Positions 87-24,344 of a DNA stretch of 33,631 nucleotides are shown here, piece after piece. The notes beneath the pieces were generated by a model that was not told the origin of the DNA, made no database searches, and saw nothing but the letters and a program-made list of their open reading frames with translations. Each line of letters opens with the position of its first letter. The first letter of the stretch is position 1. The DNA is from Verrucomicrobiota bacterium (GTDB lineage Bacteria; Verrucomicrobiota; Verrucomicrobiia; Limisphaerales; UBA1096). The translations under genes and the position numbers were made by a program. The stretch lies in NCBI GenBank assembly GCA_014382705.1, contig JACNJE010000108.1, positions 1 to 33,631 on the forward strand, read 5' to 3'.

Positions 87-578
87 ATCACAAGTTTACG
101 CATTATTGTGATTAAATATGATCATTAAACGACTACACCGCTGCAGGATTCATAAACGTGATTATAATGGCTGGGTCTCAGATCGATGAAGTACCCTCCA
201 TCAGGCACACAAAACGGCCTTTTTATCGGCGAGGGGGGCGGGGGGGGTGCCTTTTGTTTGAGGCGATGATTATTGTGATGGGTTTTTGGGTGTGGAAATT
301 TTCTCCAAAAAAGCGACCCAGGAGGCATCGATGCAACAAGGTATGATTTGGATGAATTATTAAAATAAACTTTCATTTATGAGTCGTTTGAATAGGCCAT
401 GAAAAAAAAGGAGTAGATGCAAAATGGTGACTATTGCTTTTAACTATTAGGAATAATGAAAAACATAATAGTAGGACAAAAAAGGGCTGTAAATAAACAA
501 GCTAGAAGTAGCGAAGACAAAGGATCTGGACTTAATTATCACGTGACGTCGTAAAGTACGTTGTTAGTATGGGAATAC
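87..578. other. AT-rich non-coding stretch
   Basis: No convincing gene. A G-rich run lies at about 230-248. A strong Shine-Dalgarno AGGAGG at 320-325 precedes ATG 331, but that frame has only 10 codons (stop 361-363). It could be a leader peptide or the remnant of a lost gene. The block at 491-529 (core AAATAAACAAG, then AGACAAAG) resembles 2943-2980 upstream of the nap-like operon, so it may hold a shared promoter-proximal element. Longer frames here on the minus strand have low-complexity, non-protein-like composition. Confidence 0.4.
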
Positions 579-1541
579 ATGAACATAAAAATGAAAATTA
601 AGACACAACTAGTAATAATCGCAGCTTTGATGCTGGCAGGAACAGCCTTCTCCGCCCCAATTCACGATGCTGCCATGTATGGCAATCTTGCAGGCGTCCG
701 AGCGGAACTGGATAAAGGCGTGGATGTAAATTTAAAGAATGATTTCGGTGAAACACCGCTGGATATTGCCCTCTGGCTCAATGATGCAAGCGAAACCGCC
801 GACCTCATTCGCAAGCGCGGAGGTAAAACAAGTAAAGAATTGATTGCTCTGTCCGATGCTGTCAGAACAGGAAACATTGAAGACGTAAAAAAGCACTTGG
901 CTGCTGGTGCGGATGTGAATGCGAAGGATATGTATGAGGATACTCCTTTGTACGAAGCGGTTAAACTAGGTTACAAGGGAATCGCCGAACTGCTACTGGC
1001 CAACGGTGCGGATGTTAATGTGAAGAATAATGTTGGATGGGTTCCTTTGCATATCGGAACGGCTTTAGATCACAAGGAAATCGTTGAACTACTAGTTACC
1101 AACGGTGCATATGTGGATGCGAAGGATGATGATGGATCGACCCCTATGCACTATGCGGCTTGGTACGATCGCAAGGAAGTTGCCGAGTTGCTTATAGCCA
1201 ATGGCGCGGACGTGAATGCGAAGGATGACGGTGGCGACACCCCTCTAGATATGGTCGAAGGCGAAGAAATCGCCGACATCCTGCGCGAGCATGGTGGCAG
1301 AACGGGTCATGAATTAGCACCGGTGTTTCGTTTGGATTACAGCACGGATCAATGGCCTTTCGGTTTCACTTTTGCTGCCAAGGATGGAATGGCTTATGTG
1401 GTCGAAGTGACGCAGGACTTCAAGCAGTGGGGAGTGCTGGAAACAATCGAGGGAACCGGCAAGCAGGTTAAGTTCATCGACTCAAGACAGCCGTTGGTGC
1501 CCTTCAAGCGAAGCTTCTATCGCGTCAAAGAGGTCGAGTGA
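579..1541 (+). CDS. Exported ankyrin-repeat protein with Verrucomicrobia-type C-terminal domain
   Basis: The 320-residue protein has an N-terminal signal peptide (about residues 5-25, hydrophobic LVIIAALMLAGTAFSA, likely cleaved before PIHDA). About six ankyrin repeats follow to residue ~245, shown by the recurring pattern of ELL-A-GADVNAKD and TPLH-A. The last ~70 residues form a small beta domain (YVVEVTQDFKQW, FIDS, FYRV near the end) that I associate with exported Verrucomicrobia proteins. It is probably a periplasmic or surface protein-binding scaffold; the partner is unknown. ATG 579 is chosen because GGGA lies six bases upstream; ATG 591 is the alternative, and an in-frame TTG lies at 561. 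It is a paralog of the lipoprotein at 2053. A copy of that gene's tail begins exactly at this gene's stop codon. Confidence 0.8.
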   Translation: MNIKMKIKTQLVIIAALMLAGTAFSAPIHDAAMYGNLAGVRAELDKGVDVNLKNDFGETPLDIALWLNDASETADLIRKRGGKTSKELIALSDAVRTGNIEDVKKHLAAGADVNAKDMYEDTPLYEAVKLGYKGIAELLLANGADVNVKNNVGWVPLHIGTALDHKEIVELLVTNGAYVDAKDDDGSTPMHYAAWYDRKEVAELLIANGADVNAKDDGGDTPLDMVEGEEIADILREHGGRTGHELAPVFRLDYSTDQWPFGFTFAAKDGMAYVVEVTQDFKQWGVLETIEGTGKQVKFIDSRQPLVPFKRSFYRVKEVE

Positions 1542-2052: not shown

Positions 2053-2104
2053 ATGAAACACCTCCTACTCACAACAATCGCAGCCGTGGTGCTGGTGGGA
2101 TGTG
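2053..2104 (+). repeat. Lipoprotein-leader DNA cassette, copy 1
   Basis: About 50 bases encoding the lipoprotein leader are nearly identical to 18661-18711 and 33577-33626. Differences are only two to four bases per pair, mostly at synonymous positions. The sequences immediately before the ATG and after the lipobox codon are unrelated in the three places, so the match is confined to the leader. Confidence 0.85.
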
Positions 2105-2715
2105 GCGAGTCGCAACAGTCGACTACGCCAGCAGAAGCGAAACCAGTTGAACCCATTGCAGAAGCCGCAAAACCAGAACCGCAGACAGCCAAAGCACCTG
2201 ACATCTCAATTTGGGAAGCCGCCATGAACGGAAACATCGAAGCCGTCAAAAAAGCCATTGCTGATGGTGCGGATGTGAATGTGAAGGATAAGCTTGGGGG
2301 GGCTTCTTTGCATTATGCAGCTAATAATGGCCGCAAGGAAATCGTCGAACTGCTAATCGCAGAGGGTGCGGATGTGAATGCGAGGGATAATTATAAATGG
2401 ACTCCTTTGCATGACGCGGCTCTTCGGGGTCACAAAGAAATCGCCGAACTGCTTATCGCCAATGGTGCAGATGTGAATGCGAAGGATGCTTTGCGTAGCG
2501 GCCACATCGATGGATGGGCTCCTTTGCATGCTGCGGCTGGTAACGGTAACAAGGAAACCGCCGAACTACTAATCGCCAAAGGTGCGGATGTGAATGCGAA
2601 GATGGAGGATGGCGATACGCCGCTAGATTTGGCCGAAGACGAACCCGAAACCGCCGACCTCCTCCGCAAACACGGCGGCAAGACGGCTGAAGAATTGAAA
2701 GCTGAAGGTAAATGA
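2053..2715 (+). CDS. Ankyrin-repeat lipoprotein
   Basis: A 220-residue lipoprotein. The signal peptide MKHLLLTTIAAVVLVGCG carries the lipobox LVGC, with lipidation expected at Cys17. A low-complexity Ala/Glu/Pro/Lys linker (residues ~20-50) then leads to about five ankyrin repeats, each with the GADVNAKD and TPLHAA signature. A short insertion (ALRSGHIDGW) lengthens one repeat junction. The tail HGGKTAEELKAEGK is a family hallmark. It is likely anchored in the outer or inner membrane facing the periplasm and binds an unknown protein. No Shine-Dalgarno is visible before ATG 2053; the start is fixed by the leader, which is shared almost base for base with the genes at 18661 and 33577. Confidence 0.85.
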   Translation: MKHLLLTTIAAVVLVGCGESQQSTTPAEAKPVEPIAEAAKPEPQTAKAPDISIWEAAMNGNIEAVKKAIADGADVNVKDKLGGASLHYAANNGRKEIVELLIAEGADVNARDNYKWTPLHDAALRGHKEIAELLIANGADVNAKDALRSGHIDGWAPLHAAAGNGNKETAELLIAKGADVNAKMEDGDTPLDLAEDEPETADLLRKHGGKTAEELKAEGK

Positions 2716-2824: not shown

Positions 2825-2853
2825 GCAGGGTTCGATTCCCTTCACCCGCTCCA
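2825..2853 (+). repeat. 3' end of tRNA-Gly (T arm, acceptor, CCA): probable attachment-site remnant
   Basis: The segment contains a T arm (CAGGG, loop TTCGATT, CCCTT) followed by acceptor strand CACCCGC, discriminator T and CCA. This is the usual 3' end of bacterial tRNA-Gly whose 5' acceptor strand is GCGGGTG. No D arm or anticodon arm lies upstream, so it is a 3' fragment, not a tRNA. Such fragments are typically left where an integrative element entered a tRNA gene. No integrase is visible nearby in this window. Confidence 0.6.
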
Positions 2854-3167: not shown

Positions 3168-4736
3168 ATGAGGGATAATTCCGGTAAAACTTCGAAGTTA
3201 GCCACCGGCACCGGCCTTGGCCAAGCCAAGCGCTTGGCTAAGCGCAGTCGGCCCAAGCCGTGGACGGCCGAGCTCAACCTCGACTTCCCCACGAAGTATC
3301 GCGTCATCGCCTCGGCGATCCTGTTGGTGGTGGCGTTGTTGTACCCTGCCAAATGGTTGTTAACAGATGGAATAACCGAGGACGAGGGAATACAGGAAAC
3401 CCGCATCGAAGAAGGTGGCGGGCAAAGTGCAGACAGCCTTCCGGTTGATGTCTCTGGGATTGGTTCAGAACCTATTGCTGTAGTTCAAGCCGCAGTACTG
3501 TCTAAACAGGAACCCGCTGTGTTGCCAGAAGCCGAGGAGGAGTTTTCTGATAATGCTGTCGTGGCCAAGGGAAAACAGTTGTTCGATGTGAATTGTTTGG
3601 CTTGTCACCAGTTGGGTGCGATAGGGAAGATCGGTTTTGCTCCAAGCATTGGCAACCGTGACTTTTTGGCATTGGCCACTGATGCGTTTATCCGTCAGAC
3701 CATCATAATCGGACGGCAAGGCACGGCGATGGCACCTCGCCCTGATTTGAGTGAGAAGCAGGTCACCGCGATCATCACCTATCTCCGGTCGGCTCGGGTC
3801 TCCAACCCTGTGAAGGTGAGTGTGGATTGGGACAAGAAGTTCAACGGAGATGCCACGGCGGGAGCAGAGAAGTATGGAAGGTATTGTTCTGCGTGCCATG
3901 GCGCAAAGGGGGAGGGTTACGCCGCTGGAGTGCCCGGGACGGGTATTGGTTTACCCGGTTTTTTATCCGTCGCTTCGGATGATTACATTCTCCAGACGCT
4001 AAAGTTGGGTAGGATTGGCACACCCATGCGATCGTTCATCGGGTCGCGCGGATTGGCCAACTTAACCGAAGGCGACGGGCACGACCTGATCGCCTATTTG
4101 CGTGAACAGGGAAGAAAGAATGTGCCTACCAGGGACAGGGAGGTGGCCGTGAAAGGAGACCCGAAGCGAGGTAAGCTACATTTTGATGTCAACTGCATCG
4201 CCTGCCATCAACCGGATGGTGTGGGCAAGGTTGGTTTTGCCCCCAGTATTCGTAACAGGGATTTTTTGGCCATAGCCTCGGACGACTTCATCCGGAAGAC
4301 AATACGGAATGGCCGCCTGGGAACTGCGATGGTTCCTCGGCCGGATCTGGCTTTTCAGAAGGTCAGCGACATTATTGCCTATCTTCGAGCTCTTCCGGTT
4401 GCAAACCCGGTGGAGATCGTGGTGGATCCCACCTTGTCATTCAACGGCAACGCAGAGGAGGGAGCTGTCAAGTACGCCAACTATTGTGCCGCCTGTCACG
4501 GGAGTCGAGGAGAGGGTTATCTAGCTGGGGTGCCCGGACCAGGGATAGGTTTGTCGGGTTTTTTAGAGTCGGTTTCAGATGATTATATCTTACAGACTCT
4601 CCGCCAAGGCCGGATTGGCACTCCGATGAAGCCTTTCCTTGGAGCCAAGGGGATTGCGAATCTTACTGTAGAGGATGCACATGATATAATCGCCCAATTG
4701 AGGGTAATGGGCAAAGGAAACGGAAGTGGACAATAA
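3168..4736 (+). CDS. Membrane-anchored tetraheme cytochrome c (four class-I domains, tandem duplicated)
   Basis: 522 residues. A basic N-terminus is followed by one membrane helix (residues ~45-62), an acidic linker, then four cytochrome c domains. The heme motifs are CLACH 143-147, CSACH 240-244, CIACH 343-347 and CAACH 440-444. Likely axial methionines lie in GTAM or GTPM at 188, 287, 388 and 487. Domains 1-2 and 3-4 are a tandem duplication with a period of exactly 200 residues. It probably shuttles electrons at the periplasmic face between the NapGH-like proteins or the quinol pool and the NapA-like enzyme, replacing NapB/NapC. Start ATG 3168 follows AAGGAAGGTGAGG. The NapA-like gene begins 25 bases downstream. 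The substrate partner is inferred from context only. Confidence 0.9.
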   Translation: MRDNSGKTSKLATGTGLGQAKRLAKRSRPKPWTAELNLDFPTKYRVIASAILLVVALLYPAKWLLTDGITEDEGIQETRIEEGGGQSADSLPVDVSGIGSEPIAVVQAAVLSKQEPAVLPEAEEEFSDNAVVAKGKQLFDVNCLACHQLGAIGKIGFAPSIGNRDFLALATDAFIRQTIIIGRQGTAMAPRPDLSEKQVTAIITYLRSARVSNPVKVSVDWDKKFNGDATAGAEKYGRYCSACHGAKGEGYAAGVPGTGIGLPGFLSVASDDYILQTLKLGRIGTPMRSFIGSRGLANLTEGDGHDLIAYLREQGRKNVPTRDREVAVKGDPKRGKLHFDVNCIACHQPDGVGKVGFAPSIRNRDFLAIASDDFIRKTIRNGRLGTAMVPRPDLAFQKVSDIIAYLRALPVANPVEIVVDPTLSFNGNAEEGAVKYANYCAACHGSRGEGYLAGVPGPGIGLSGFLESVSDDYILQTLRQGRIGTPMKPFLGAKGIANLTVEDAHDIIAQLRVMGKGNGSGQ

Positions 4737-4761
4737 ACAGAGACGATAGGGATCAAAAGAA

Positions 4762-7377
4762 ATGAAAAGACGAAAATTCATCAAGCATGTAGCTGGCGCG
4801 GCGGTTCTTGGAAAAGTGTCCGCCAACGCATGGAATGTGCAGGGCGGGGAGAAGTACGTGTTGAAGGAAGACACTGCCGGTACGGATATCTTGGCGGCTT
4901 GTCCCTACTGCGGCGTGGGCTGCGGCACAATCATCAAGACAAAGAACGGGCGCATCACAACCATCGTACCTGACAAGGATCATCCGACCAACCGAGGTCT
5001 GCAGTGTATCAAGGGCCTGACGTCGGCGGAGGCAATTTATGTCAACCGCCTGACAAAGCCTCTCATTCGCAAGGACATGTCTGATCCTTTGCGTGGGAAG
5101 GTGTCCAAAACCAAGGGTAGTTACGATCCGTCCTTGTTTCGCGAGGCCACATGGGATGAGGCAGAGGAACTGATCGCCGAGAAAACTGCAGAGATAGTGA
5201 AAACTTCGGGAGGCAATGCCGTTGGCTTGTACGGTTCCGGTCAACTCACATTGGAAGGTCAGTATCTGGAGAATATTTTCATGAAAGGCATCATCGGTTC
5301 AAACACAATCGAGGCGAACGCGCGCATGTGCATGACCTCGGCGGTGACCGGTTATATCAAGTCCCTAGGATCCGACACGCCGCCTACATGTTACGACGAT
5401 ATTGAGCGGGCGGACATGATCTGCTTCTGGGGACATAACGCGCGTGGTGCGCATCCCATCCTGTTCTGGAGGGTGGCCGATTATAAGGCGAAGAAGGACA
5501 TCCCAACAGTGGTTGTGGATCCAAGGCGCACCGGCACGGTGATGGGTCTGGAGGAAATTAACCCGAAGAAGAGCTACCATCTTCCAACCATTAACGGGGA
5601 TATCTCCATTCATAATGCCATCGCCTATGCTATCATGGAGCGTCATCCAGAGGCTGTCGCATGGGACTTTCTGAAAAGTCATGCGGACGGGTGGGAAACC
5701 TATGTTGAGGAGGTCAAAAAGGGGTATCGCCCTGAGGACGTAGTTGACCGCACCAAGGTCGCTCCGGAGAAAATCTATGAAATTGCCAAGTTGTGGGCGG
5801 AGGCGAGCATCAAGGGGCGGAAGCGGAATACAGGTGGAGTACTATGCATCTGGGGTATCGGTTATAACCAGCATTTGCACGGGCAACACAACACGATGAG
5901 TTTGGTGAACCTAATGGCCCTGACTGGCAACATTGGACGCCCCGGTTGCGGCCCGCATTCGCAGACCGGCCAACCCAACGCCATGGGTGAGCGCCTCACT
6001 GGCGGACTGACCGGCCGGTTGCCGTTCAATATTGGTATTAAAGATGACAAGCACCGGGCCTGGTGCGCCAAGCAGTGGGGTATTCCGCAGGAACGCCTCG
6101 ACAAGACTGCAAAAATGCAAAACACCGGCATGGCTGTCGGGATGATGGAGCGTGCCCTGAAGGGCGAAGTGCAGGCGATGTTCTTGATCTATGCGACACA
6201 CATCGATCTGCCGGACTCCTATCATCTTTCCCGTCCCGCGCTGACGAAGACGTTCACTGTGGTGCAGGAAATATACAAGGATGCGCCCAACAATCTTTAT
6301 GCTGACGTGATACTTCCTGCAGCAACATGGGGCGAGTGGGTGGGTGGAATCTATGTGCAGTCTGAGCGGCGGCTATATGTTACTGACGGTACGGCAAATC
6401 CCATTAAAGGGACACGGCCGGACATGGACATGGTTATCGACAAAGGCAAACTCATCGGCAAATTGCTGGGCTTGAATGTAGACAAGATTTTTCCGTACAA
6501 GCGTAAGGCGAATGGCTTTTATGATCCGGAGGAGGTGTTCCGTGATTTCTGTCGTGCGTCAAAGGGGACGGACTCTGATCTCACCGGAATTCTCGCTGTG
6601 GAGGAGGAGACCGGCAAGTCGCCCTATCAGCAGATTCGCGATTTACGAGGTATCCAGTGGCCTGCTCCGACCGCAGCCATTGCCAAGGCGGGCGGCACCA
6701 AGCGCAGATACATGGGGCAGGAAGATTATTGGCCTGACAGACCATACGCTGAGTTCCGCCATACGGATGGTAAACTGCACATGCATATGTGCCACCAGGA
6801 TTACTCGGAATACCGGGAAATCACGGATGAGTTGTCCAAAGTCGGCACTGAGCCAAATTACTATATAATTGATCACTACGATTTGTTGGTTAAGGCACGG
6901 GACATGGGGCTCACCCCAGAGTTGCCGCATACCGAGCATCTTGGCAAAAAAGCTGGAAAGTGCCCAAAGGACAAGTATCCATTCTGGTTTGCGACAGGTG
7001 TGGTGTATGAACATTTTCATACGGCAAAAACCATTCGTGCCGGCACCACCCTGCAGCTTGTGCCCGAGATGTACGTCGAGATGCATCCAGATGATGCCAG
7101 CGAGTTGGGGGTTAAGGATGGTCAGTGGGTGCGTGTTGTCACGCGACGTGGTGAGATTGAGGCGCGCGTCTCGGTCGGTCTAGATTCAGTGGTAAAACCG
7201 GCCCGCAACACCGTGCCTAAGGGCTTTCTTTTCAGCCCTTGGAACTTGTCGGTCGCTGACTCGGCGGATCCAAAGAAGAACAAATGGCTCGCAAACGGCA
7301 CCACCCACCGGGCGTTTGATCCGGTATCAGGCCAAGCAGATTTCAAAAAATGCGCCGCGCGGATTGAATTGCTTTGA
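4762..7377 (+). CDS. napA: Periplasmic molybdopterin oxidoreductase, NapA-type nitrate reductase catalytic subunit
   Basis: 871 residues. A Tat-like signal (RRKFIK, then AGAAVLG, possible cleavage near ANA-WN) is followed by the 4Fe-4S motif Cys47-x2-Cys50-x3-Cys54-x27-Cys82 with the conserved Lys84. The likely Mo-ligating cysteine is Cys190 in ARMCMTSAV, followed by a NapA-like stretch with CYDDIE and HPILFWR. The C-terminal molydop-binding domain is visible from about residue 735 (FATGVVYEHFHT, MHPDDA, RRGEIEARV). In the known family it reduces nitrate to nitrite with bis-MGD cofactor. It lies between a tetraheme cytochrome and NapG/NapH homologs. NapB, NapC and NapD are missing, so another oxyanion or N-oxide substrate cannot be excluded. 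Confidence 0.82.
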   Translation: MKRRKFIKHVAGAAVLGKVSANAWNVQGGEKYVLKEDTAGTDILAACPYCGVGCGTIIKTKNGRITTIVPDKDHPTNRGLQCIKGLTSAEAIYVNRLTKPLIRKDMSDPLRGKVSKTKGSYDPSLFREATWDEAEELIAEKTAEIVKTSGGNAVGLYGSGQLTLEGQYLENIFMKGIIGSNTIEANARMCMTSAVTGYIKSLGSDTPPTCYDDIERADMICFWGHNARGAHPILFWRVADYKAKKDIPTVVVDPRRTGTVMGLEEINPKKSYHLPTINGDISIHNAIAYAIMERHPEAVAWDFLKSHADGWETYVEEVKKGYRPEDVVDRTKVAPEKIYEIAKLWAEASIKGRKRNTGGVLCIWGIGYNQHLHGQHNTMSLVNLMALTGNIGRPGCGPHSQTGQPNAMGERLTGGLTGRLPFNIGIKDDKHRAWCAKQWGIPQERLDKTAKMQNTGMAVGMMERALKGEVQAMFLIYATHIDLPDSYHLSRPALTKTFTVVQEIYKDAPNNLYADVILPAATWGEWVGGIYVQSERRLYVTDGTANPIKGTRPDMDMVIDKGKLIGKLLGLNVDKIFPYKRKANGFYDPEEVFRDFCRASKGTDSDLTGILAVEEETGKSPYQQIRDLRGIQWPAPTAAIAKAGGTKRRYMGQEDYWPDRPYAEFRHTDGKLHMHMCHQDYSEYREITDELSKVGTEPNYYIIDHYDLLVKARDMGLTPELPHTEHLGKKAGKCPKDKYPFWFATGVVYEHFHTAKTIRAGTTLQLVPEMYVEMHPDDASELGVKDGQWVRVVTRRGEIEARVSVGLDSVVKPARNTVPKGFLFSPWNLSVADSADPKKNKWLANGTTHRAFDPVSGQADFKKCAARIELL

Positions 7378-8003
7378 GCCAAAATAAAGAGGCATCAAGC
7401 AACATCAATCGAGTTGGGTTTTTTAGAGCCCTGCTCACCGGTGCAGTGCTACCGTTCGCTGTTTTGTTCCTGGACAAACTGCCCGGCACCCGCCGATTGC
7501 GGCGCTATCTTCGACCACCTGGGGCTCAGCGGGAGGAGGCTTTTCTCTCTGCCTGCATCCGTTGTGGGCAATGCGCGAATGTTTGTCCAAACCAGTGCAT
7601 TACTCTGGCAGGGTTGGAGACAGGGCTGGCAGGCTTGGCTGCGCCAGTTATCACTGCAAGAGCCCAGGCCTGTATCCTTTGCATGGCCTGCACACAGGTC
7701 TGCCCCACGGGCGCATTGCAACCACTCGAACCCACCGAGGCTGGACGCCAAACTGTCAGCATGGGCACCGCCGTGGTGATGGAGGATGTCTGCTACTCGT
7801 ACGCTGGTCGCACCTGCGGGGTGTGCTACCGCGCCTGTCCGTTGCCAGGAAAGGCGATGAAACTTGGTTTGTATGAAACGCCGATTGTTAACCCTGAGCA
7901 TTGTGTGGGTTGCGGGCTTTGCGAGCAGGCCTGTGTCCACATGCCGCAGGCTATCCGCATCATCCCTGCCAGCCAACTTGCCCAAGAGGAGGTGCATGGT
8001 TAA
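7374..8003 (+). CDS. napG: NapG/MauM-like ferredoxin with four 4Fe-4S motifs
   Basis: 209 residues. An N-terminal hydrophobic segment (residues ~15-33, GFFRALLTGAVLPFAVLF) serves as a membrane anchor or export signal. The cysteine clusters are 61/64/67/71 (CIRCGQCANVC), 100/103/106/110 (CILCMACTQVC), 140/148/151/155 (CGVCYRAC) and 177/180/183/187 (CVGCGLCEQAC). This layout is typical of NapG, which passes electrons from the NapH quinol-oxidising subunit to the periplasmic reductase. The start is TTG 7374, overlapping the NapA-like stop by four bases (TTGA), because the frame has no ATG before the hydrophobic segment. The NapH-like gene follows with a TAATG overlap. The GAGGAGGTG at its end is a strong ribosome site for that gene. 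Confidence 0.85.
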   Translation: MSQNKEASSNINRVGFFRALLTGAVLPFAVLFLDKLPGTRRLRRYLRPPGAQREEAFLSACIRCGQCANVCPNQCITLAGLETGLAGLAAPVITARAQACILCMACTQVCPTGALQPLEPTEAGRQTVSMGTAVVMEDVCYSYAGRTCGVCYRACPLPGKAMKLGLYETPIVNPEHCVGCGLCEQACVHMPQAIRIIPASQLAQEEVHG

Positions 8004-9520
8004 TGCGTGCTGAACGCCTTATGCTGGTGGGATCAATCATCTCGCGTCTAGGTGTGGTGGCTCTGCTTTGTGCATTGGCGTTGATGACCAGTTACGTCAA
8101 TCTCAAGCAGGCGTACAACAACCCGCGCTTGGTTGAGTTGAGCCTGGGTGCCACGGCTAGGAAGGCTTATGAGGTGGCGGACGCGGTGCTTGGCCAACTG
8201 GGCGACCCGATGGAGGTGGCACAATCCAATGGCGGGATGACTTGGTCCATCCGGATATTGGGCATGCCATTCACAGATCCCGTGGCGGCTCTGTCGGTGT
8301 TGGCTGTGGAGGGACAGTGGGCGCTTGGCTTCGCTCTTGGCCTGATTGTGCCACTATTGTTGGTGTTCGTATTCGGACGAGTGTTCTGTTCGTACATTTG
8401 CCCGGCCTCGATCTTGTTTTTTGCGGTGGCTCGTGTGCGGCGGTTGCTTGGTCGCTGGTTCTACTTCCCCGAGTGGCATCCCGGCCGAGGGTTGGCCTGG
8501 GGGATTCTGTTTGGCGGCTTGGGCGTGGCAATGATTACAGGACATGGAGTTTGGTTGCTTCTGTTGCCATACTTTGCGCTTGGCCAAACGATTTTTCATG
8601 GCTTGGCAATGGGAACGTTGTCTGTCGCGTCGGGCAGTTTGATTGTGTTTGTGATGTTGGACTTTTTCCTGGGTCGCCAATTCACCTGCAGGCATGTGTG
8701 CCCCACGGGCCGGGTGCTCGGTTGGCTTGGGCAGCGACCAGTGTTCACGCTGCAACGGGATGCCAGCCGCTGCATTGATGGTTGCAACAGTTGCGCGGAG
8801 ATTTGTCCGCAAGGTATCAGTCCTCGACTGGATCAGACGGTTGATTGTTCGCTTTGCGGCGAGTGTATGATGGTTTGCCCCACTCATTGTCTCACCGTAA
8901 GAAGGCGCCGCCGCTTGAGCCCCCGCTTGGCCAAGGCGGCTCTGTTGTTCTGGTTATTGTCAGCGGGGCCCCTGTTTGCACACCATTTCAAGGGGTTGCC
9001 GCATTACAATTATTTTGAGAACTACCCGCAGGTGCCGGAGGAGGAATTCCTTGGCCAAGCGGGAGAGTACGAGACTTCGTTGGTGGTGTACGATTTTCAG
9101 GGTATCCACAGCCCAAACATTGAGGATCCGGAGAACGTGAGGCTCTTTCTTGTGATCTTCAACCTGCGCAACTCGCGGGTATACCAAGGTGAGTTAACCT
9201 TCGAAATTCTTGATGGGGGCCGTGTGTTGCACAGCAAGCACTACGAGAAGGCGCAGTTGGAGAACATGTACTCGGCGCAGCGGAACCTGTCGGACACCGG
9301 TGACTACGCAGTGCGACTGACGTTGCATGATGATGATGAGCGCCAGTGTGTCATCCCGTTTCGGTTGTCTTCGCAGAAGACACACTGGGGGCGCTGGATC
9401 GCGCTTGGCCTGATGGTGATGATGGCTGTTACCGCCGTTGGCGCGCGCAAGGCCCGCTTGGTCCAGGATCGATGTGAGGCGCACAAACGCAATCTGTCCT
9501 CCACGGCATACACCCGATGA
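8003..9520 (+). CDS. napH: NapH-like membrane polyferredoxin with extra C-terminal periplasmic domain
   Basis: 505 residues. Membrane helices surround two CxxxCP motifs (Cys129/133 FCSYICP and Cys229/233 TCRHVCP). Two 4Fe-4S clusters follow: Cys257/261/264/268 and Cys282/285/288/292. This is the quinol-dehydrogenase core of the NapH family, which normally ends here at about 300 residues. This protein continues with a helix (~311-325), a ~145-residue beta-rich segment beginning HHFKGLPHYNYFENY, and a final helix near 470-490, topped by a basic tail. The extra domain resembles the periplasmic FixG/CcoG- or YtkA-like beta domain; that is tentative. The start is ATG 8003, with GGAGGTG ten bases upstream. 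The stop overlaps the next gene by four bases (ATGA). Confidence 0.8.
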   Translation: MRAERLMLVGSIISRLGVVALLCALALMTSYVNLKQAYNNPRLVELSLGATARKAYEVADAVLGQLGDPMEVAQSNGGMTWSIRILGMPFTDPVAALSVLAVEGQWALGFALGLIVPLLLVFVFGRVFCSYICPASILFFAVARVRRLLGRWFYFPEWHPGRGLAWGILFGGLGVAMITGHGVWLLLLPYFALGQTIFHGLAMGTLSVASGSLIVFVMLDFFLGRQFTCRHVCPTGRVLGWLGQRPVFTLQRDASRCIDGCNSCAEICPQGISPRLDQTVDCSLCGECMMVCPTHCLTVRRRRRLSPRLAKAALLFWLLSAGPLFAHHFKGLPHYNYFENYPQVPEEEFLGQAGEYETSLVVYDFQGIHSPNIEDPENVRLFLVIFNLRNSRVYQGELTFEILDGGRVLHSKHYEKAQLENMYSAQRNLSDTGDYAVRLTLHDDDERQCVIPFRLSSQKTHWGRWIALGLMVMMAVTAVGARKARLVQDRCEAHKRNLSSTAYTR

Positions 9521-11070
9521 ATCACGACATGGAGCACTGCTCGATGGCTGCCGATGGCACCATGACGATGGATGGCATCCCGTTCTGGATGGCAGCCAGC
9601 GGGGTGGTGCTGATTATCCTGCTGACGCACGGTTACATGATGTTCAGAAAAGAGCCGGATGCCCGGCGTGTGCCTTACTGGACATTGAATCTGCTGAGCG
9701 TAGCTAGTCTGAAACGACTGGTGAAATGGCCTGCGTTCCCGCTGCTGATCCAGTCTGTGCCATTATTTTTGTTGTCCCTGGTGATCGTCGCCGGTTTGTT
9801 TGGTTCACCCAAGGGCAACATCGCTCCTGTGCTGACCTGGACGTGGTGGTGGATTTTGCTGATCTTTTTCGTGGCCGGCTTTGGCAAACTTTTCTGCGCC
9901 ATCTGTCCGTGGGAGGCGCTGTCATCAATGGTCACCGCACTATCCCTAAAATCTCGTCTCAAGCGGATCACTCACGACCGGCCTTTCCCGCGCTGGGCGC
10001 GTAACATCTGGCCGGCAATCGGTTTTTTTGTCCTGCTCACCTGGTTGGAACTGGGCATGGACATCACCCATTCCCCGGCAATGACCGCAGTGCTTGGCCT
10101 GTTCATGGCGGCTATGGCAGTGATGCTGGCTGTGGTTTATGAGAAGCGAGCTTTCTGTCGCTACAGTTGTCCAGTGGGACGGATCAGCGGACTGTATGCA
10201 CTATTCAGTCCGGTGGAACTGCGGCCTGCTGATGCCGAAATCTGCCGCACCTGCGATGGCAAGGAATGCTACCACGGCAGCGCCAACCAAACCGGTTGCC
10301 CGACCGGTTTATTTCCCGGCCACCTCACCGAGAACACGTATTGCACGCTTTGTTCCGAGTGCGTCCGGGCCTGTCCGCACGATAACCTAGCGTTGAACCT
10401 GCGCCCGCCCGCTACAGATCTCGTGCGCAAGAATCGTTTTCAATGGGATGAATCCATTCTCGCCATAGTGCTGCTGGCGCTGACGAGTTTCCACGGTCTG
10501 ACCATGACTCCTGTGTGGGCGAGCGCGAACAACCTTTTGAGAGTCGAGACAGGGCTTGGCCCAAAGGTAATGTTCACTCTGTTGATGCTCCTGATGGTGT
10601 TGCTGCCGATCGGCCTTTTCTGGGTGACGGCAAGGGTGGCATCAGCGTTGACACCTACGGCCGGCGTTTCAACCGGGGTCATTTTCAAGGCGTTCTCTTA
10701 TTCATTGATCCCTGTGGCGTTGTTTTATCATTTGGCCCATAACTGCATGCATTTCTTCATGGAGGCGGGAAACTTGCTTCCGTTGCTCAGCGACCCGCTT
10801 GGTTGGGGATGGGATCTTTTTGGGACAGCAAAAAAGACCTATGGGGCAATGCTGTCGATGAAAGCCATCTGGTGGCTCCAGATTATCTGTGTCGTGGTTG
10901 GCCACGTGTTTGGCGTCGTGATTGCCGACAATCTGGCCAGGCGGTTGTATGATACATCAGGCTTGGCCAAGCGGGTGTTGTATCCGTTGATGTTCGCCAT
11001 GGTGCTCTACTCAGTGTTCAGCGTCTGGCTGATTGCCCAGCCGATGGACATGCGGACAAGCGGCATGTAG
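9517..11070 (+). CDS. Second NapH/NosR-type membrane polyferredoxin with His/Met-rich N-terminus
   Basis: 517 residues. The first 20 residues, MNHDMEHCSMAADGTMTMDG, are rich in Met, His and Asp and look like a copper-binding peptide. About ten membrane helices follow. The cytoplasmic loops hold FCAICP (Cys127/130) and FCRYSCP (Cys214/218), then Cys243/246/251/261 and Cys276/279/282/286. Unlike ordinary NapH, at least five helices follow the iron-sulfur region; histidines there (HLAHNCMHFF near 404) could bind heme or quinol. This extended form recalls NosR/RdxA relatives. It closes the operon through an ATGA overlap and probably moves electrons between quinol and the periplasmic components. 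The exact role is unknown. Confidence 0.75.
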   Translation: MNHDMEHCSMAADGTMTMDGIPFWMAASGVVLIILLTHGYMMFRKEPDARRVPYWTLNLLSVASLKRLVKWPAFPLLIQSVPLFLLSLVIVAGLFGSPKGNIAPVLTWTWWWILLIFFVAGFGKLFCAICPWEALSSMVTALSLKSRLKRITHDRPFPRWARNIWPAIGFFVLLTWLELGMDITHSPAMTAVLGLFMAAMAVMLAVVYEKRAFCRYSCPVGRISGLYALFSPVELRPADAEICRTCDGKECYHGSANQTGCPTGLFPGHLTENTYCTLCSECVRACPHDNLALNLRPPATDLVRKNRFQWDESILAIVLLALTSFHGLTMTPVWASANNLLRVETGLGPKVMFTLLMLLMVLLPIGLFWVTARVASALTPTAGVSTGVIFKAFSYSLIPVALFYHLAHNCMHFFMEAGNLLPLLSDPLGWGWDLFGTAKKTYGAMLSMKAIWWLQIICVVVGHVFGVVIADNLARRLYDTSGLAKRVLYPLMFAMVLYSVFSVWLIAQPMDMRTSGM

Positions 11071-11580: not shown

Positions 11581-11649
11581 ATGCGTTTGGTGAGAGAAAA
11601 AAATTCACCCTTAAACTCTCTCTTACAAAAAACTAAGCACTATCTTTAA
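11581..11649 (+). CDS. Possible small ORF of 22 codons
   Basis: AAAGGAG is followed after six bases by ATG 11581 and a 22-codon frame (MRLVREKNSPL..., stop at 11647-11649). It sits between two minus-strand genes and is divergent from the MOSC gene. The ribosome site is the best on this strand nearby, but the peptide has no recognisable features, and it slightly overlaps the end of the peroxidase gene. It may be chance. Confidence 0.2.
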   Translation: MRLVREKNSPLNSLLQKTKHYL

Positions 11650-12719
11650 TGGTTTCCGGGCAGATCCGGTTCCCGTATATATTCTAATGGAAGAGAGCCT
11701 GTGAGAGTTTCCAGAAATTGGAGTAGATAATTCATTTGTAGTTTCGACAAAGTTCGCCCTTTCTCGTGTCGAGCCATCATCTCCACTACTTTTTTCAAGG
11801 ATGGCTCCCGTCCATCATGAAGGTAGGGTTTGGTTTGTGTTACATTGCGAAGACTCGGAACCTTGAACTTCCCGTAGTCAGCCTTGTTACGGGTAACAGA
11901 AAATCGACCTGGATCAACTTCCTCAGGCCAGGGGATGACACGACCAAGTCTGACAAAAGTCTGCCCGCCCATGTAGGTTCCTTTATGGCATCGAGCACAA
12001 CCGGCCTCTTTAAAAACAAAGAATCCCCTGATTTCGTCCTTAGTTAAGGCGTTGCGGTCTCCCTTCAGAAACATATCCCAGCGAGAGGGGGTAGTCAGCC
12101 CCCGTTCAAATGTGGCCAGTGCTGTGCAAATATTCTCAAATGAGAGCGGCTCATCGTCTTCAGGGAAGGCACCAGTAAACAATTCTATATAATCCGGAGT
12201 GGTTGCCAGTGCCTGCACTACCTCTTGCCTCGTTTTAAAACCCATTTCCGTGGGATTGAGCAGGGGGGCTGCGGCTTGATGCTCTATTTTTTTTATTCGG
12301 CCATCCCAGAACATTGAAAAGTGTCCCGCAACATTGTAGACGGTCGGGGTATTTCGCAGGCCACGCCGACTACGATCCAATCCGGGCGAAGTTGTAAAAA
12401 CATCCAAATCGCGGCCATAATTCTGAAGGTCGTGGCAGGTTTGACAGGAGGTTGTACTGTCTTCGCTCAGGCGCCGCTCAAAGAACAAGATACGGCCCAG
12501 GTCGATCTTAGCTGCCGTACGCGGATTTTCAGGTGACTCGATGACTCTTGGAAGTGGAGGTAGAAAATCTTGAAGCGACTCGGCAGTAACTTCGGGATCT
12601 TGACCAAATTTAACCTCCAGCAATGGCAGTTCCCGCTCATACGAGCACGAGCAAATCGCCATCGCCACAAATACATGAGTTGAAATCCAGGAGTAATTGT
12701 TTCGGTACAACCGTTTCAT
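11646..12719 (-). CDS. Di-heme cytochrome c peroxidase / MauG-family protein
   Basis: 357 residues. An N-terminal hydrophobic export segment contains cysteines (AMAICSCS), perhaps an atypical lipoprotein signal. The two heme motifs are CQTCH (92-96) and CARCH (241-245). The conserved family stretches LGRILFFERRLSED, NTPTVYN, MFWDGR, FKVPSLRNVTQTKPYLHDGR and the C-terminal GS-P are all present. Members are periplasmic and reduce hydrogen peroxide with cytochrome electrons, or oxidise protein residues (MauG). The start ATG 12719 overlaps the stop of the DUF2231-cytochrome gene as ATGA, supporting translational coupling. An in-frame start further upstream (12758) would place 13 polar residues before the signal and is unlikely. 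Confidence 0.85.
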   Translation of the reverse strand: MKRLYRNNYSWISTHVFVAMAICSCSYERELPLLEVKFGQDPEVTAESLQDFLPPLPRVIESPENPRTAAKIDLGRILFFERRLSEDSTTSCQTCHDLQNYGRDLDVFTTSPGLDRSRRGLRNTPTVYNVAGHFSMFWDGRIKKIEHQAAAPLLNPTEMGFKTRQEVVQALATTPDYIELFTGAFPEDDEPLSFENICTALATFERGLTTPSRWDMFLKGDRNALTKDEIRGFFVFKEAGCARCHKGTYMGGQTFVRLGRVIPWPEEVDPGRFSVTRNKADYGKFKVPSLRNVTQTKPYLHDGREPSLKKVVEMMARHEKGRTLSKLQMNYLLQFLETLTGSLPLEYIREPDLPGNH

Positions 12720-13699
12720 CCTTTGATCTTGACGATAGAAGCACCCGTCTGAATCCACTTAATGAGGGTTAGAGCCTCATCGTCACTCAGGTGCCCTTTG
12801 CCTTCGGGGGGCATGACATCATCATCGTCTTCCGGTAATAGTATCCCTTTGATAAGCTTGCTACCACCAGGGTCTCCAGGCAAAATCGCCGGCTCTTCAC
12901 TTTCCCCTCCGGCAAAAAGAATCTTCATGTCATCAACTCGATAGTCACCCTTTTGTTTTTCTGGTCCGTGGCACTTCAGACAATGCTTGCGCAGAATCGG
13001 CTCCACTTTTGTCACAAACACACCATTCATCTTAGCCCTATCAGCCAAGTTGCTAGAGACGGAGGTGTTTTCCGAATCTGGATTATCAAGAAATTCCCTC
13101 AAAAAACCGGGTGCATTTTTGGTTAGGAAAGTTGTACCATGTGTCAGATTGCCGCCCGAATGTCCCGCCCCCAACAGTATCGCCAAATTTAGGGTTAACA
13201 ACATCCGGAATATAACAGTCCATCGAGGCTCTTTCGCTCGTCTTTCCATGGTTAGTGCACCGGTGGCTGCCATAGCAATTGCGGTAACCGAAAATCCATA
13301 ATTCCGATGGACGATGGTCAATGTGGGGTCGTAAGCACTTCCGCTAGCCAAAAACAATCCCAGAACGGCTACTACAAGCAGGCAAACTGCGCTCAACGGC
13401 ATTAACCAGAACATAACATTGCGTAAGGCTGGTTGGGGATTGCGCCAGTAAACTAGTTCCAACAAGCAAGCTATGGCGATAAAACCAAAGGGAAAGTGCA
13501 GAAGAACAGCGTGGAAGGGTCCAACAAAGCTAATGAACCAAAAATCTGTCTGATCAATAGCTAAATTTTCCGGATCAACTGTTGCAGCAAGCAGATGCAG
13601 CGGCCTAGTGCAAAAAAACAACATAGCCAGCATCCGCAGTATATGATACCTACCGTGCCGAAATTCGATCGACAGTATGGACTTTTGTTTAGCTATCAT
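12716..13699 (-). CDS. DUF2231 membrane domain fused to Planctomycete-type cytochrome c
   Basis: 327 residues. An N-terminal hydrophobic segment (21-39) is followed by a DUF2231-like membrane domain (~55-185, four to five helices, with HFPFGF and GHSGGNLTH). The C-terminal cytochrome domain has CLKCH at 240-244 and a likely Met ligand in DDVMPPEG. The fusion suggests a membrane redox unit passing electrons across or along the membrane to the peroxidase encoded next to it. ATG 13699 is preceded by GAAGGTGGG. The gene overlaps the peroxidase by four bases. This pair is probably one operon. The electron donor is unknown. Confidence 0.8.
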   Translation of the reverse strand: MIAKQKSILSIEFRHGRYHILRMLAMLFFCTRPLHLLAATVDPENLAIDQTDFWFISFVGPFHAVLLHFPFGFIAIACLLELVYWRNPQPALRNVMFWLMPLSAVCLLVVAVLGLFLASGSAYDPTLTIVHRNYGFSVTAIAMAATGALTMERRAKEPRWTVIFRMLLTLNLAILLGAGHSGGNLTHGTTFLTKNAPGFLREFLDNPDSENTSVSSNLADRAKMNGVFVTKVEPILRKHCLKCHGPEKQKGDYRVDDMKILFAGGESEEPAILPGDPGGSKLIKGILLPEDDDDVMPPEGKGHLSDDEALTLIKWIQTGASIVKIKG

Positions 13700-16418: not shown

Positions 16419-17354
16419 TTACTGCACCCGCCACAGTGTGGGGGTGACACCTGTAACGCGCTTGAAGGAGCGGTTGAAGTGCGGGATGGACTGAAAACCA
16501 GCCTCAAAGGCTACTTCACTGATGCGATTGTTCTGGTTTAGCAGCAGTTGCTTTGCCCGCTCCACGCGCAATCGAGTGATGTATTCGGTAAATCTAACTT
16601 TGACATATTTCTGAAACTGCCTGCATAAGTAGAAGGGACTTACATTAAGATGCTTGGCGAGATCCTCCAGTCGTATTGGTTCTGTGATGTTTGACTTTAT
16701 GTATGTTCTGGCCTTTTTGATTAACAGGGGTTCCGCTGACTTTTTGCGGATCATTATGGCGTTTGCTTGATCCGAAAGCCGTTCGGCAAACTGGGTGATC
16801 AGTTCAATTAAGGCTTTCTGTCGCTGACTCGTGTAGACTTCTGCGCTCCGGTAGCTTTCTTCCATCTCCAGAGGTGTGATGTCCAGATTCCATTCCTCGA
16901 GTTTCTTCGCGGCATTGCGAAACAATGTCCGTGATGGTTGTTGGGGCAGCATTTGACCGGTGTGCAGGAAAGCGATACATCTACCACTCACGTGGACAGG
17001 CACAGCGATATCGATCATTCCCATTGGGCATTTTATCGATTGACCTTGATTCTCGGCCAACTCCATAAGTTTCAATTGTGTTTCCAGGCAACAGGAACAA
17101 GCATTTGGGTTCCGGGCCATGTAGGAGCAAATCAATCGTTCCTGCATTTCGCCATGCAAAGGCGGTTGCCAGTAATCCTTGGAGCGCAAAGCAAAAGGTA
17201 AGCCGGTGAGATCCCCGTAGGCCGCGCGGAAACGTTGGTATAGTTCGCTTTTGATGAGCTTCTGTACAATTTGGAGGTCACCCGGCGTGGGCTTGACTGC
17301 AGGATCTGAAACAGCTCTCGTGTCAGGTTTCATTTTCGGAGGACTAACTAACAT
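16419..17354 (-). CDS. PocR-domain AraC-family transcriptional regulator
   Basis: 311 residues. The N-terminal sensory domain (~25-180) looks like PocR: YGDLTGLPF, the cysteine cluster ACSCC, then KCPMGMIDIAVPV and GQML. The C-terminal ~100 residues are the AraC double helix-turn-helix (IRLEDLAKHLNVSPFYLCRQFQKYV, ISEVAFEAGFQSIPHFNRSFKRVTGVTP). PocR domains bind small hydrocarbon derivatives or respond to redox through their cysteines. A target is not evident; the porin remnant is downstream on the same strand and the heme protein gene is upstream. The start is uncertain: ATG 17354 or 17333, neither with a Shine-Dalgarno. Confidence 0.85.
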   Translation of the reverse strand: MLVSPPKMKPDTRAVSDPAVKPTPGDLQIVQKLIKSELYQRFRAAYGDLTGLPFALRSKDYWQPPLHGEMQERLICSYMARNPNACSCCLETQLKLMELAENQGQSIKCPMGMIDIAVPVHVSGRCIAFLHTGQMLPQQPSRTLFRNAAKKLEEWNLDITPLEMEESYRSAEVYTSQRQKALIELITQFAERLSDQANAIMIRKKSAEPLLIKKARTYIKSNITEPIRLEDLAKHLNVSPFYLCRQFQKYVKVRFTEYITRLRVERAKQLLLNQNNRISEVAFEAGFQSIPHFNRSFKRVTGVTPTLWRVQ

Positions 17355-17565: not shown

Positions 17566-18108
17566 CTAATTATCTTTATCTATTGGAACTGAATAAACTA
17601 ATGCACCGACAGGCTTACCTTTTTCTATTTCCGAATAATTGGGATGGCAAATTACACACTTAGGCGAAACTATGGGCACCGCAGTTGCAGCACGAAGCAT
17701 TCGATTGCCACCATTAATTTCCACTTTCTCGTACCGACCTGCTCCGGCAAGAAGTTTTGTTATAGCCTCTTTCTCAAATGGATCTTTTGCAACGTTCGTG
17801 CTGCTATACGGTTTACCACTTGTGTCAATTAAACGGGTTTCAGGGTGACCTGCTTTTTTGACAGCCTTGAATAGCAATTTGGCTGCACGCCCAGCAGGGT
17901 AACTATCCTCATCCTCCACATATGCTTTGGTGATCAATACCACCACGTTCACATAAATATCATTTAGGAGAGTTACTGTTTTACGGGCTCTTTCCAGAGC
18001 CAAATCTTTCTGGGTATCTGCTGCGTTTGCAGAAGTTAGTGGAAACGTGGCAATCCCGACCATAATAAGGGATCCGCATAGTAATAAGTTACATTTTTTT
18101 TGAATCAT
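17566..18108 (-). CDS. Exported Tll0287-like (DUF3365) heme-binding protein
   Basis: 180 residues. The signal peptide (~1-29) ends near SANA-AD. The rest is a single Tll0287-like/DUF3365 domain with ALERARKTVTLLNDIY, GHPETRLIDTSGKPYSSTNVAKDPFEKEAI, and the heme motif CVICH at 151-155 in an SPKCVICHPNY context. Such domains act as periplasmic heme sensors or electron carriers; here no transmitter domain is attached. ATG 18108 has AAGGA seven bases upstream. It lies behind the PocR-AraC gene on the same strand but 200 bases away, so it probably has its own promoter. Confidence 0.8.
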   Translation of the reverse strand: MIQKKCNLLLCGSLIMVGIATFPLTSANAADTQKDLALERARKTVTLLNDIYVNVVVLITKAYVEDEDSYPAGRAAKLLFKAVKKAGHPETRLIDTSGKPYSSTNVAKDPFEKEAITKLLAGAGRYEKVEINGGNRMLRAATAVPIVSPKCVICHPNYSEIEKGKPVGALVYSVPIDKDN

Positions 18109-18574: not shown

Positions 18575-18660
18575 GCGCTCAAAGAGGGGGCGGGGATCAG
18601 CGATTATATTAAAAGACAGAGCGTTCTATAGGCTAAAAATTGAAGAAGAAGAATTTTCAA

Positions 18661-22167: not shown

Positions 22168-23979
22168 ATGACAACTTCAGCAGAGCGCAAGTCAATCGCA
22201 CAAAGTCACCCTAGTCCAGCCAACTCCACCGCTTTTTGGGGCAAGTACATCTTTTCAAGCGATCACAAGGTGATTGGTATTCAATACGGTTTTACGGGAC
22301 TGTTCTTCTTGCTGTTCGGTTTTTTTCTGGTCGTGGTGATGCGTTGGCAGATGGCCTATCCGGGAAGCCCGGTTCCGTTTGTGGGCGGGCTGTTGGAGAA
22401 GGCGATGGGGGAGCCCGCGGAGGGAGGGGTGGTCTCCGCACAGTTGTACAACATGTTTGGCGCCATGCATGGCACAATCATGGTGTTCATGGGAGTGGTG
22501 CCGGTGGCTTTCGCCGGTTTTGGCAATTACTTCGTCCCGTTGCAGATCGGCGCTCCGGACATGGCCTTCCCGAGGCTCAACATGGCCAGTTATTGGCTGT
22601 TTTTCATGGCTTGCATTACCATGTCCGTCAGTTTTGTCCTGCCAGGGGGACCGGCTCAGGCCGGGTGGACCGCCTACTCACCGCTGGCCACAACAATTCC
22701 CACGGACGGTCAGACCATCTGGCTGATTGGCATGGTGTTGTTGATCACCTCCTCCTTACTGGGGGCGGTGAATTTTCTGGTCACGATCATTCAAATGCGT
22801 GCTCCGGGGATGAGTTGGCTGCGCCTTCCGTTCTTCGTCTGGACGCAATTGATCACAGCGTTTCTGCTCCTCCTCGCATTTCCACCGCTGGAAGCTGCCG
22901 GCTTGCTGCAGTTGATGGACAAGGTTCTGGAGACCAGTTTTTTCATCCCGTCAGGGTTGCTGGTACAGGGACAGGAACTGAGCCAGAGCGGCGGAGGCAA
23001 TCCTCTGTTGTGGCAGCACTTGTTTTGGTTCTTGGGGCATCCAGAGGTGTATGTCCTGTTGCTGCCGGCCATCGGGATTATAACGGAGGTCATCGCCAAC
23101 AACACGCGTAAGCCGATATGGGGATACAAGTACATGGTAGCGTCCGTCATTGTACTGGCGTTTGTTTCGTTTTTTGTGTGGGCACATCACATGTACCTTA
23201 CGGGAATGGGAACGGTGATCAGTTCCTTTTTCCAGACGACAACGATGATCATCAGCGTCCCGTCGGTCATCATCCTGAGCTGCCTGCTGGTCACTCTTTG
23301 GGGAGGATCCATTCGGTTTAACACGCCGATGTTGTTCGCGCTCGCGTTCCTTCCGATGTTTGGCATTGGCGGCTTGACCGGGCTTCCTCTGGGCATCAGC
23401 ATGACCGATCTGGCACTGCATGACAGTTACTATGTCATCGGTCACTTTCATTACGTGGTTGCTCCCGGGATATTGTTCGGGTTGTTTGCCGGGGTGTACT
23501 ACTGGTTTCCCAAGATGACCGGCCGGATGATGGATGAAAGGCTCGGACGTATGCATTTCTGGGCGACCCTGATTTTCATGAACGTGGTTTTCCTGCCGAT
23601 GTTCGCACAGGGCATGGCCGGGATGAGCCGGCGTATGGCGGACGGCGGGGCGACCTACGCACTCAGCAACAGCCCGGCTATCACGACCGGGGCCTTTTCA
23701 GACCGGATTATGGAGTTGAACGTCTGGATGGCCGCCGGGGCCGTCTGCCTCGTTGTCGCCCAGTTGCCCTTCATCGTGAACCTGTTCGTCAGCCTCAAAA
23801 GAGGGATCAAAGTGTCAAGCGACAACCCATGGGCCGCGACGACGCTTGAATGGGAGACCCCAACGCCGCCCGGCCACGGGAATTTCATTACACCTGTCAC
23901 AGCGCGACGGGGGCCGTACGAGTACAGCGTGCCTCAATGTGACAAGGATTACCTGCCGCAATCCCAATCCGCCCGTTGA
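22168..23979 (+). CDS. ctaD: Cytochrome c oxidase subunit I (heme-copper oxidase), orphan
   Basis: 603 residues with twelve or more membrane helices. Heme a ligands are His101 and His428, heme a3 ligand is His426 (HFHYV), and CuB ligands are His291, His340 and His341. The cross-linked Tyr295 is in GHPEVY. D-channel residues Asp131 (GAPDMAFPRLN) and Glu293 are present. The K-channel lysine is not: the usual PTG-I-K-I stretch reads PSVIIL, with Ile369 in the lysine position. The enzyme reduces oxygen and pumps protons across the inner membrane. Subunits II and III and assembly factors are absent from both sides, with pseudogene debris flanking it. ATG 22168 has no obvious Shine-Dalgarno. Confidence 0.9.
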   Translation: MTTSAERKSIAQSHPSPANSTAFWGKYIFSSDHKVIGIQYGFTGLFFLLFGFFLVVVMRWQMAYPGSPVPFVGGLLEKAMGEPAEGGVVSAQLYNMFGAMHGTIMVFMGVVPVAFAGFGNYFVPLQIGAPDMAFPRLNMASYWLFFMACITMSVSFVLPGGPAQAGWTAYSPLATTIPTDGQTIWLIGMVLLITSSLLGAVNFLVTIIQMRAPGMSWLRLPFFVWTQLITAFLLLLAFPPLEAAGLLQLMDKVLETSFFIPSGLLVQGQELSQSGGGNPLLWQHLFWFLGHPEVYVLLLPAIGIITEVIANNTRKPIWGYKYMVASVIVLAFVSFFVWAHHMYLTGMGTVISSFFQTTTMIISVPSVIILSCLLVTLWGGSIRFNTPMLFALAFLPMFGIGGLTGLPLGISMTDLALHDSYYVIGHFHYVVAPGILFGLFAGVYYWFPKMTGRMMDERLGRMHFWATLIFMNVVFLPMFAQGMAGMSRRMADGGATYALSNSPAITTGAFSDRIMELNVWMAAGAVCLVVAQLPFIVNLFVSLKRGIKVSSDNPWAATTLEWETPTPPGHGNFITPVTARRGPYEYSVPQCDKDYLPQSQSAR

Positions 23980-24296: not shown

Positions 24297-24344
24297 ATGA
24301 ATCGGGTTAGATTACATATAATCGAAATACCAACATCAAAATGA
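24297..24344 (+). CDS. Possible 15-codon leader ORF before hcp
   Basis: ATG 24297 opens [15 protein letters not shown] and ends in a TGA that overlaps the hcp start as ATGA. TTGATTTTCTATGA around its start is identical, over 14 bases, to the sequence around the start codon of the tetraheme cytochrome gene (3159-3172). It has no clear Shine-Dalgarno. It could couple translation of hcp, or be chance. Confidence 0.25.

Follow-up and report, generated by a model that had tools for sequence, protein, structure and literature searches.

A conserved Nap-like operon from a Verrucomicrobiota bacterium probably encodes a separate lineage of periplasmic respiratory reductase

The window analysed here is the entire contig JACNJE010000108.1 (33,631 nt) of a Verrucomicrobiota bacterium, and it carries at 3168-11070 an operon related to those of the periplasmic nitrate reductase (Nap). 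We consider that this operon probably encodes an anaerobic periplasmic respiratory reductase, which would form a lineage of its own within the molybdoenzyme group of Nap and the assimilatory nitrate reductases (Nas), and which would act on an oxyanion, most likely nitrate. Open reading frame (ORF) calling placed five genes on the same (+) strand. The first (3168-4736) encodes a cytochrome c with four monoheme class-I domains in Pfam and a hydrophobic segment predicted to be an N-terminal transmembrane (TM) helix. After a gap of 25 bases comes the gene for a NapA-like catalytic subunit of 871 amino acids (4762-7377), assigned to the molybdenum bis-molybdopterin guanine dinucleotide (Mo-bis-MGD) enzymes by its Pfam domains Molybdopterin, Molydop_binding and Molybdop_Fe4S4. 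Its stop codon TGA (7375-7377) overlaps, as TTGA, the TTG start at 7374 of a gene for a NapG-like ferredoxin (7374-8003), which joins at TAATG (8001-8005) the gene for NapH1 (8003-9520), a NapH-like membrane ferredoxin (approximately residues 1-326, with predicted TM segments) extended by a predicted periplasmic domain that we call His-His. An ATGA junction (9517-9520) leads to NapH2 (9517-11070), a second and strongly diverged NapH-like membrane ferredoxin. These coordinates bear out the five-gene operon and the four junctions reported in the initial annotation.

We favour this reading because the residues that nitrate reductases share across Nap and Nas rather than with formate dehydrogenase (Fdh) are invariant or nearly so in the NapA-like subunit and its relatives, hereafter the clade. 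The 4Fe-4S cysteines Cys47/50/54/82 with Lys84, Gln161, Asn186, the Mo-ligand pair Cys190-Met191, the GQPNAM motif at 403-408 and Arg411 are found in 85 of 85 clade members, and Thr402 of TGQPNAM is replaced only once, by Ser. The Fdh references mostly have His after the ligand residue and lack an active-site Arg, whereas the clade has Met and Arg411. The leader of the subunit starts MKRRKFIK and is twin-arginine-like, with R3, R4 and F6 invariant in the five sequences first aligned, which would suit a periplasmic enzyme. The subunit scores 357.1 bits on the NapA equivalog NF010055 (cut-off 904) and 336.4 bits on TIGR01706 (cut-off 930.55), compared to 973 and 944.8 bits for a canonical NapA from genome G415, which also carries a clade operon. 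Identity to known NapA proteins is approximately 25-35%.

The lineage was then placed in a tree of 51 rows and 701 columns, with references that did not include cyanobacterial NarB or epsilonproteobacterial NapA, and with a row for the Desulfovibrio monomeric NapA that was transcribed from a printed alignment with 24 residues masked. Nap, Nas and the clade are split together from Fdh (support 100/100). Canonical NapA, including the Desulfovibrio enzyme, is monophyletic with the clade outside it (100/99.7), and the clade is itself a group (100/100) on a long stem of 1.71 changes per column. A position as sister of NapA is weakly supported (88/48), and the clade stands apart from every Nas/NarB-like row included. 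A quick tree likewise gave a separate clade. As judged from these trees, the catalytic subunit belongs to a lineage of its own and not to canonical NapA. The initial annotation had described a rewired NapA-type operon, a description that does not hold for this enzyme; the catalytic subunit also falls in neither a formate dehydrogenase clade nor an assimilatory one.

The clade is widespread. A scan of named genomes gave at least 80 further loci at 58-98% identity, and the family is probably larger; locus counts here and below are among the matches listed. By phylum, the 80 listed loci comprise Pseudomonadota (46), Verrucomicrobiota (13), Myxococcota (7), Planctomycetota (5) and Cloacimonadota (2), with one each from Gemmatimonadota, Eiseniibacteriota, Latescibacterota, Walliibacteriota and Zixiibacteriota, and two without an assigned phylum. 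The order cytochrome, NapA-like, NapG-like, NapH-like recurs repeatedly among these relatives, and the operon core is present in at least 85 loci from at least 10 phyla, so the arrangement is not due to chance. Cultured members include Photobacterium indicum, P. profundum, Shewanella abyssi, S. gelidimarina and Ruegeria sp. In a class-level search (E <= 1e-100) the host genome alone matched among 286, and across 388 genomes of the phylum four more, none of them from the same class, have orthologues at 59-82% identity, with the next best matches at approximately 35%. So scattered an occurrence among phyla suggests horizontal transfer; no relatives were seen on viral contigs, and plasmids gave no match at >=60% identity. 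No family name for the clade was found in the databases searched, and we found no paper naming or describing it, with thin coverage of subscription journals and preprints. It is apparently undescribed.

The initial annotation took the operon cytochrome to be a tetraheme monodomain protein. Instead, Pfam finds four separate Cytochrome_CBB3/Cytochrom_C domains, with CXXCH motifs at residues 143, 240, 343 and 440, in the order A-B-A'-B'. Identity is 60% between A and A' and 62% between B and B', compared to 32-38% for other pairs, and the protein is thus a duplicated diheme unit. Only class-I cytochrome c domains score above cut-off, and the Cytochrom_NNT domain of NapC/NirT (PF03264) is absent from it. 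The predicted N-terminal TM segment lies at residues 46-64, in line with the membrane anchor that had been proposed, but the anchor is not conserved, as the N-terminus of the copy in G415 resembles a cleavable signal peptide. Cytochrome homologues with 2, 4, 6 or 10 CXXCH motifs precede the NapA-like gene in relatives. The two-motif form accounts for 49 loci, chiefly in Pseudomonadota and Myxococcota, the four-motif form for 16 loci in the group around Verrucomicrobiota, and the ten-motif form for 7.

The homology behind the NapA, NapG and NapH labels is genuine, but every score is below its curated cut-off. The NapG-like protein, with four cysteine motifs and a TM-like segment at 14-32, reaches 131.7 bits (NapG cut-off 269). 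NapH1 reaches 93.2 bits and NapH2 only 39.6 (NapH cut-offs 213-234), the latter with a Fer4_5 match and approximately eight hydrophobic segments. These proteins are similar in predicted architecture to the curated families and are called NapG/H-like only. Among the 84 related loci, NapG-like genes are present in 82, NapH1-like genes in 74 (several contigs end early) and NapH2 homologues in 49 (many contigs are cut). In some lineages the NapG/H types are the sole quinol module, and many pseudomonadotal copies add a five-heme cytochrome of the NapC/NirT family (at least 35 loci; TIGR02161, up to 4.6e-80). In L035, L036, L089, L091, L095, L105 and L110, the NapA-like gene and that of a class-I cytochrome with ten hemes come after genes for a GltD-like FAD/Fe-S protein, Rieske protein and cytochrome b (similar to the ExtP/ExtQ models), which may together form a compact chain from Rieske/cytochrome b to the molybdoenzyme. 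Loci L086 and L109 have an adjoining Rieske/cytochrome b/c1-like (bc1) set instead, with Cytochrom_C1 matches. The quinol-oxidising modules thus differ by lineage around a constant core of cytochrome, NapA and NapG.

Because the cytochrome stays constant while the quinol oxidase changes between lineages, it more plausibly resembles NapB, a direct donor, than NapC, and we propose it as the direct electron donor to the NapA-like subunit. Of the earlier suggestion that it takes the place of both NapB and NapC, the NapB-like part is therefore favoured; replacement of NapC is improbable, since relatives keep the cytochrome along with a quinol oxidase of their own. We searched the host assembly (4.0 Mb, 181 contigs), which is 90.7% complete, so that genome-wide absences are subject to the missing ~9%. 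It gave no match to NapB (PF03892), NapC-type (PF03264) or NapD (PF03927) proteins, in agreement with the absence of these three from the operon noted at the outset, and no second NapA, canonical NapA or NarG. The idea of an alternative electron route to a periplasmic molybdoenzyme is retained in so far as a Nap-like enzyme is paired with an alternative c-type cytochrome and NapB, NapC and NapD are missing, but the enzyme is not NapA proper.

The C-terminal part of NapH1 (8981-9520), unseen in the initial annotation, is a predicted Ig-like periplasmic domain with a C-terminal TM segment and a predicted mature N-terminus of HHFKGLPHY. Its family members have approximately 150-200 residues and occur in at least 67 loci, as a separate gene in 51 (G415 among them) and preceded by a long N-terminal part in the other 16. 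The residue before His-His is small in all 67 (A 55, G 6, S 5, C 1), which is compatible with signal-peptidase cleavage, but cleavage is doubtful in the window copy because its -3 residue is Leu. Alignment of 60 members shows H1, H2, G5, P7 and Y109 to be invariant. No Pfam model gave a convincing match to the domain, and the G415 copy matched nothing in Pfam or NCBIfam. In the AlphaFold model (predicted local distance difference test score 79.9, below 50 at the N-terminus) a beta sandwich is joined to a C-terminal helix, and its best matches among solved structures, all weak, include DUF4426, the copper protein CrdA, PmoD and P19 (query TM-scores 0.42-0.50). Speculatively, the domain probably binds metal or serves in assembly; it is conserved, unannotated and a new feature of the operon.

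The genomic setting of the relatives points to nitrogen oxides. Upstream regions were bounded by an operon walk and searched for exact matches to the FNR/NNR-type motif TTGAY-N4-RTCAA, of which 23 lie in 27.9 kb upstream of operons (20 loci) and 22 in the other 1.275 Mb of the loci searched, a 48-fold enrichment. NarP boxes with at most one mismatch were not found upstream of operons. Genes for NarQ/NarX-like kinases adjoin the operon in L101 (411 bits, cut-off 553) and L074, an RIC gene does so in G415 and L062 (above cut-off in L062), and G415 also has a YgbA_NO gene. In the window a hybrid cluster protein (Hcp, Prismane; PF03063, 529 bits) is encoded at 24341-25975 (+), outside the operon and 13 kb from it; Hcp was not found near the operon in other loci. 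In other bacteria Hcp is tied to nitrosative stress. Together, the FNR-type sites, the kinases and the RIC, YgbA and Hcp genes suggest an anaerobic nitrogen-oxide physiology. Canonical NapA, NarG, NrfA, NirS and NirK were searched in 29 clade genomes, and NirK was found in none of them. Neither a recognised NapA nor NarG is present in 12 of the 29, and among those 12, NrfA is present in G469 and G325, and NirS in G563. In these three genomes, the clade enzyme is the sole candidate found for a respiratory nitrate reductase. Nitrate is most likely its substrate where it stands alone, and elsewhere it may have a distinct substrate or niche.

Several observations weigh against nitrate respiration as the general role. 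Canonical NapA is over cut-off in 15 of the 29 clade genomes (two copies in each Photobacterium), so that the clade enzyme may have a different task from ordinary nitrate reduction. Directly behind the active-site Arg, 11 of 11 NapA sequences have Glu or Asp, as does Nas, compared to Leu or Phe412 in nearly all clade members; His225, Arg228, Glu410 and His480 are further active-site residues specific to the clade. Upstream of the window operon we see a single FNR-like match with two mismatches and no good site, and neither NirK, NirS nor an above-cut-off NrfA turned up in the incomplete host assembly. It is possible, if doubtful, that the clade enzyme uses the same electron route to reduce another oxyanion or N-oxide (e.g. 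nitrite, chlorate or selenate); a division of tasks would then explain why it is found alongside canonical Nap. The 15 co-occurrences agree with this, as do the clade-specific residues, the long stem and the canonical-type NapA genes within ~12 kb of the clade operon in G415, G571 and G569 (the last near cut-off and 11 kb off). Against it, the core catalytic signature equals that of nitrate reductases, nitrate/nitrite sensor-like kinases adjoin two copies, and 12 genomes lack recognised NapA or NarG, three of them with NrfA or NirS. In G415, a canonical NapA set (L033, 3515-9527, - strand), made up of the 973-bit NapA and two cytochromes of four CXXCH each, points away from the clade operon, and the RIC and YgbA_NO genes sit between the two. 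A bolder version, which we hold to be unlikely, is that the clade is an unnamed respiratory molybdoenzyme family of at least 10 phyla, fed by class-I hemes, with a non-nitrate substrate or a distinct nitrate chemistry, and needing a new periplasmic His-His protein that may bind copper.

It is improbable that the operon encodes an otherwise ordinary, divergent canonical Nap that lost NapB, NapC and NapD: NapA is the top curated model and the weakly favoured sister, but canonical NapA is monophyletic without the clade, identity to it is low, and the heme domains, the His-His domain and the second NapH are kept across phyla, which is unexpected under decay. We reject formate dehydrogenase and assimilatory nitrate reductase as very improbable identities, since despite an Fdh-alpha score of 323 bits, near that for NapA, the subunit has Met rather than His after the ligand Cys, Arg411 in every clade member and a position in the tree apart from Fdh and the Nas/NarB groups, and a twin-arginine-like leader together with c-type cytochrome and NapG/H-like partners does not suit a cytosolic assimilatory enzyme.

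In the preferred reading, a nitrate-reducing periplasmic enzyme, the membrane-bound oxidation of quinol would fall to the NapG/NapH-like proteins in the window system, and in relatives also to the NapC-type pentaheme, the Rieske/cytochrome b pair or the bc1 complex. The electrons would then reach the cytochrome's class-I heme domains, go on to the 4Fe-4S cluster of the NapA-like subunit and end at Mo-bis-MGD, the site at which the oxyanion (most likely nitrate, yielding nitrite) would be reduced. The gene clusters of clade II nitrous oxide reductase likewise contain NosG/NosH, which are homologues of NapG/NapH, with NosC-type monoheme class-I cytochromes and sometimes Rieske/cytochrome b; the terminal enzyme there is the copper protein NosZ, whereas the clade has a molybdoenzyme. 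Canonical Nap systems (E. coli napFDAGHBC; the NapC-independent forms of Wolinella/Campylobacter; Sporomusa napGHCAD) share with the clade a twin-arginine-like leader, a 4Fe-4S cluster, Mo-bis-MGD with a Cys ligand and a NapG/NapH-type module. They differ in that the clade is separate, the host genome of the window lacks NapB, NapD and NapC, the likely donor is a set of class-I heme domains, and the window operon adds a second NapH-like protein and the His-His domain. NapB and NapC are not universal in Nap either, as functioning systems without NapC or NapB are on record (PMC12780646, PMC6195509). In C. jejuni, Nap is coupled without NapC to the Qcr (bc) complex (PMC6195509), a path from bc complex through c hemes to periplasmic nitrate reduction that is paralleled by the bc1-like genes of L086 and L109; the window operon differs in having no Rieske/cytochrome b and a donor other than NapB. 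The assimilatory NasC/NasA/NarB enzymes share TGQPNAM-Arg and the Cys-Met ligand pair, but the clade has a twin-arginine-like leader, respiratory partners and a clade of its own. A 2023 survey of the superfamily found the placement of NapA and Nas uncertain (PMC10100899).

With scores so far under the NapA cut-offs, the clade would escape napA markers and curated models or be wrongly assigned by them, although its members are spread over Verrucomicrobiota, Planctomycetota, Myxococcota, Pseudomonadota and several candidate phyla. Should nitrate be its substrate, inventories drawn up from genomes fall short of the true extent of nitrate respiration; if not, cultured bacteria such as Photobacterium profundum carry a respiratory enzyme for some other substrate. 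The role of NapG/H is unsettled (PMC6195509), and lineages that have naturally exchanged quinol modules while keeping one cytochrome-reductase core allow it to be studied by clean comparison.

Other genes of the window were also inspected. Just 3' of the operon and convergent with it, the gene at 11646-12758 (-) has two CXXCH motifs and is MauG/cytochrome c peroxidase-like by eye; an iodate-type reading based on this neighbour was discarded, as L038, the closest flanked relative, has no such gene directly 3' of its operon (judged by gene size only). A gene for cytochrome c oxidase subunit I (COX1) lies at 22168-23979 (+), with no obvious subunit II/III adjacent among ORFs of >=110 amino acids. 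It is not a conserved neighbour, being near the operon only in L038, the nearest relative. A PocR-sensor AraC regulator and a Tll0287-like protein are encoded at 16419-17354 (-) and 17566-18108 (-). On the 5' side are two genes for ankyrin-repeat-like proteins, at 561-1541 (+) and 2053-2715 (+), the second with a lipoprotein-like leader that is seen again at 18640 (MKHLLLTTIAAVVLVGCG). At 2827-2853 (+), approximately 315 bases 5' of the cytochrome gene, 27 bases exactly repeat the 3' end of a tRNA-Gly(CCC) gene and resemble an attachment-site footprint. The operon was considered as an island on this basis and the idea rejected, since the usual geometry puts the element leftward, over the ankyrin genes and on the opposite side. 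The tRNA gene itself is at 1136-1209 (-) of host contig C102, beside a short ORF that, by eye only, is similar to the remnant of an integrase N-terminus.

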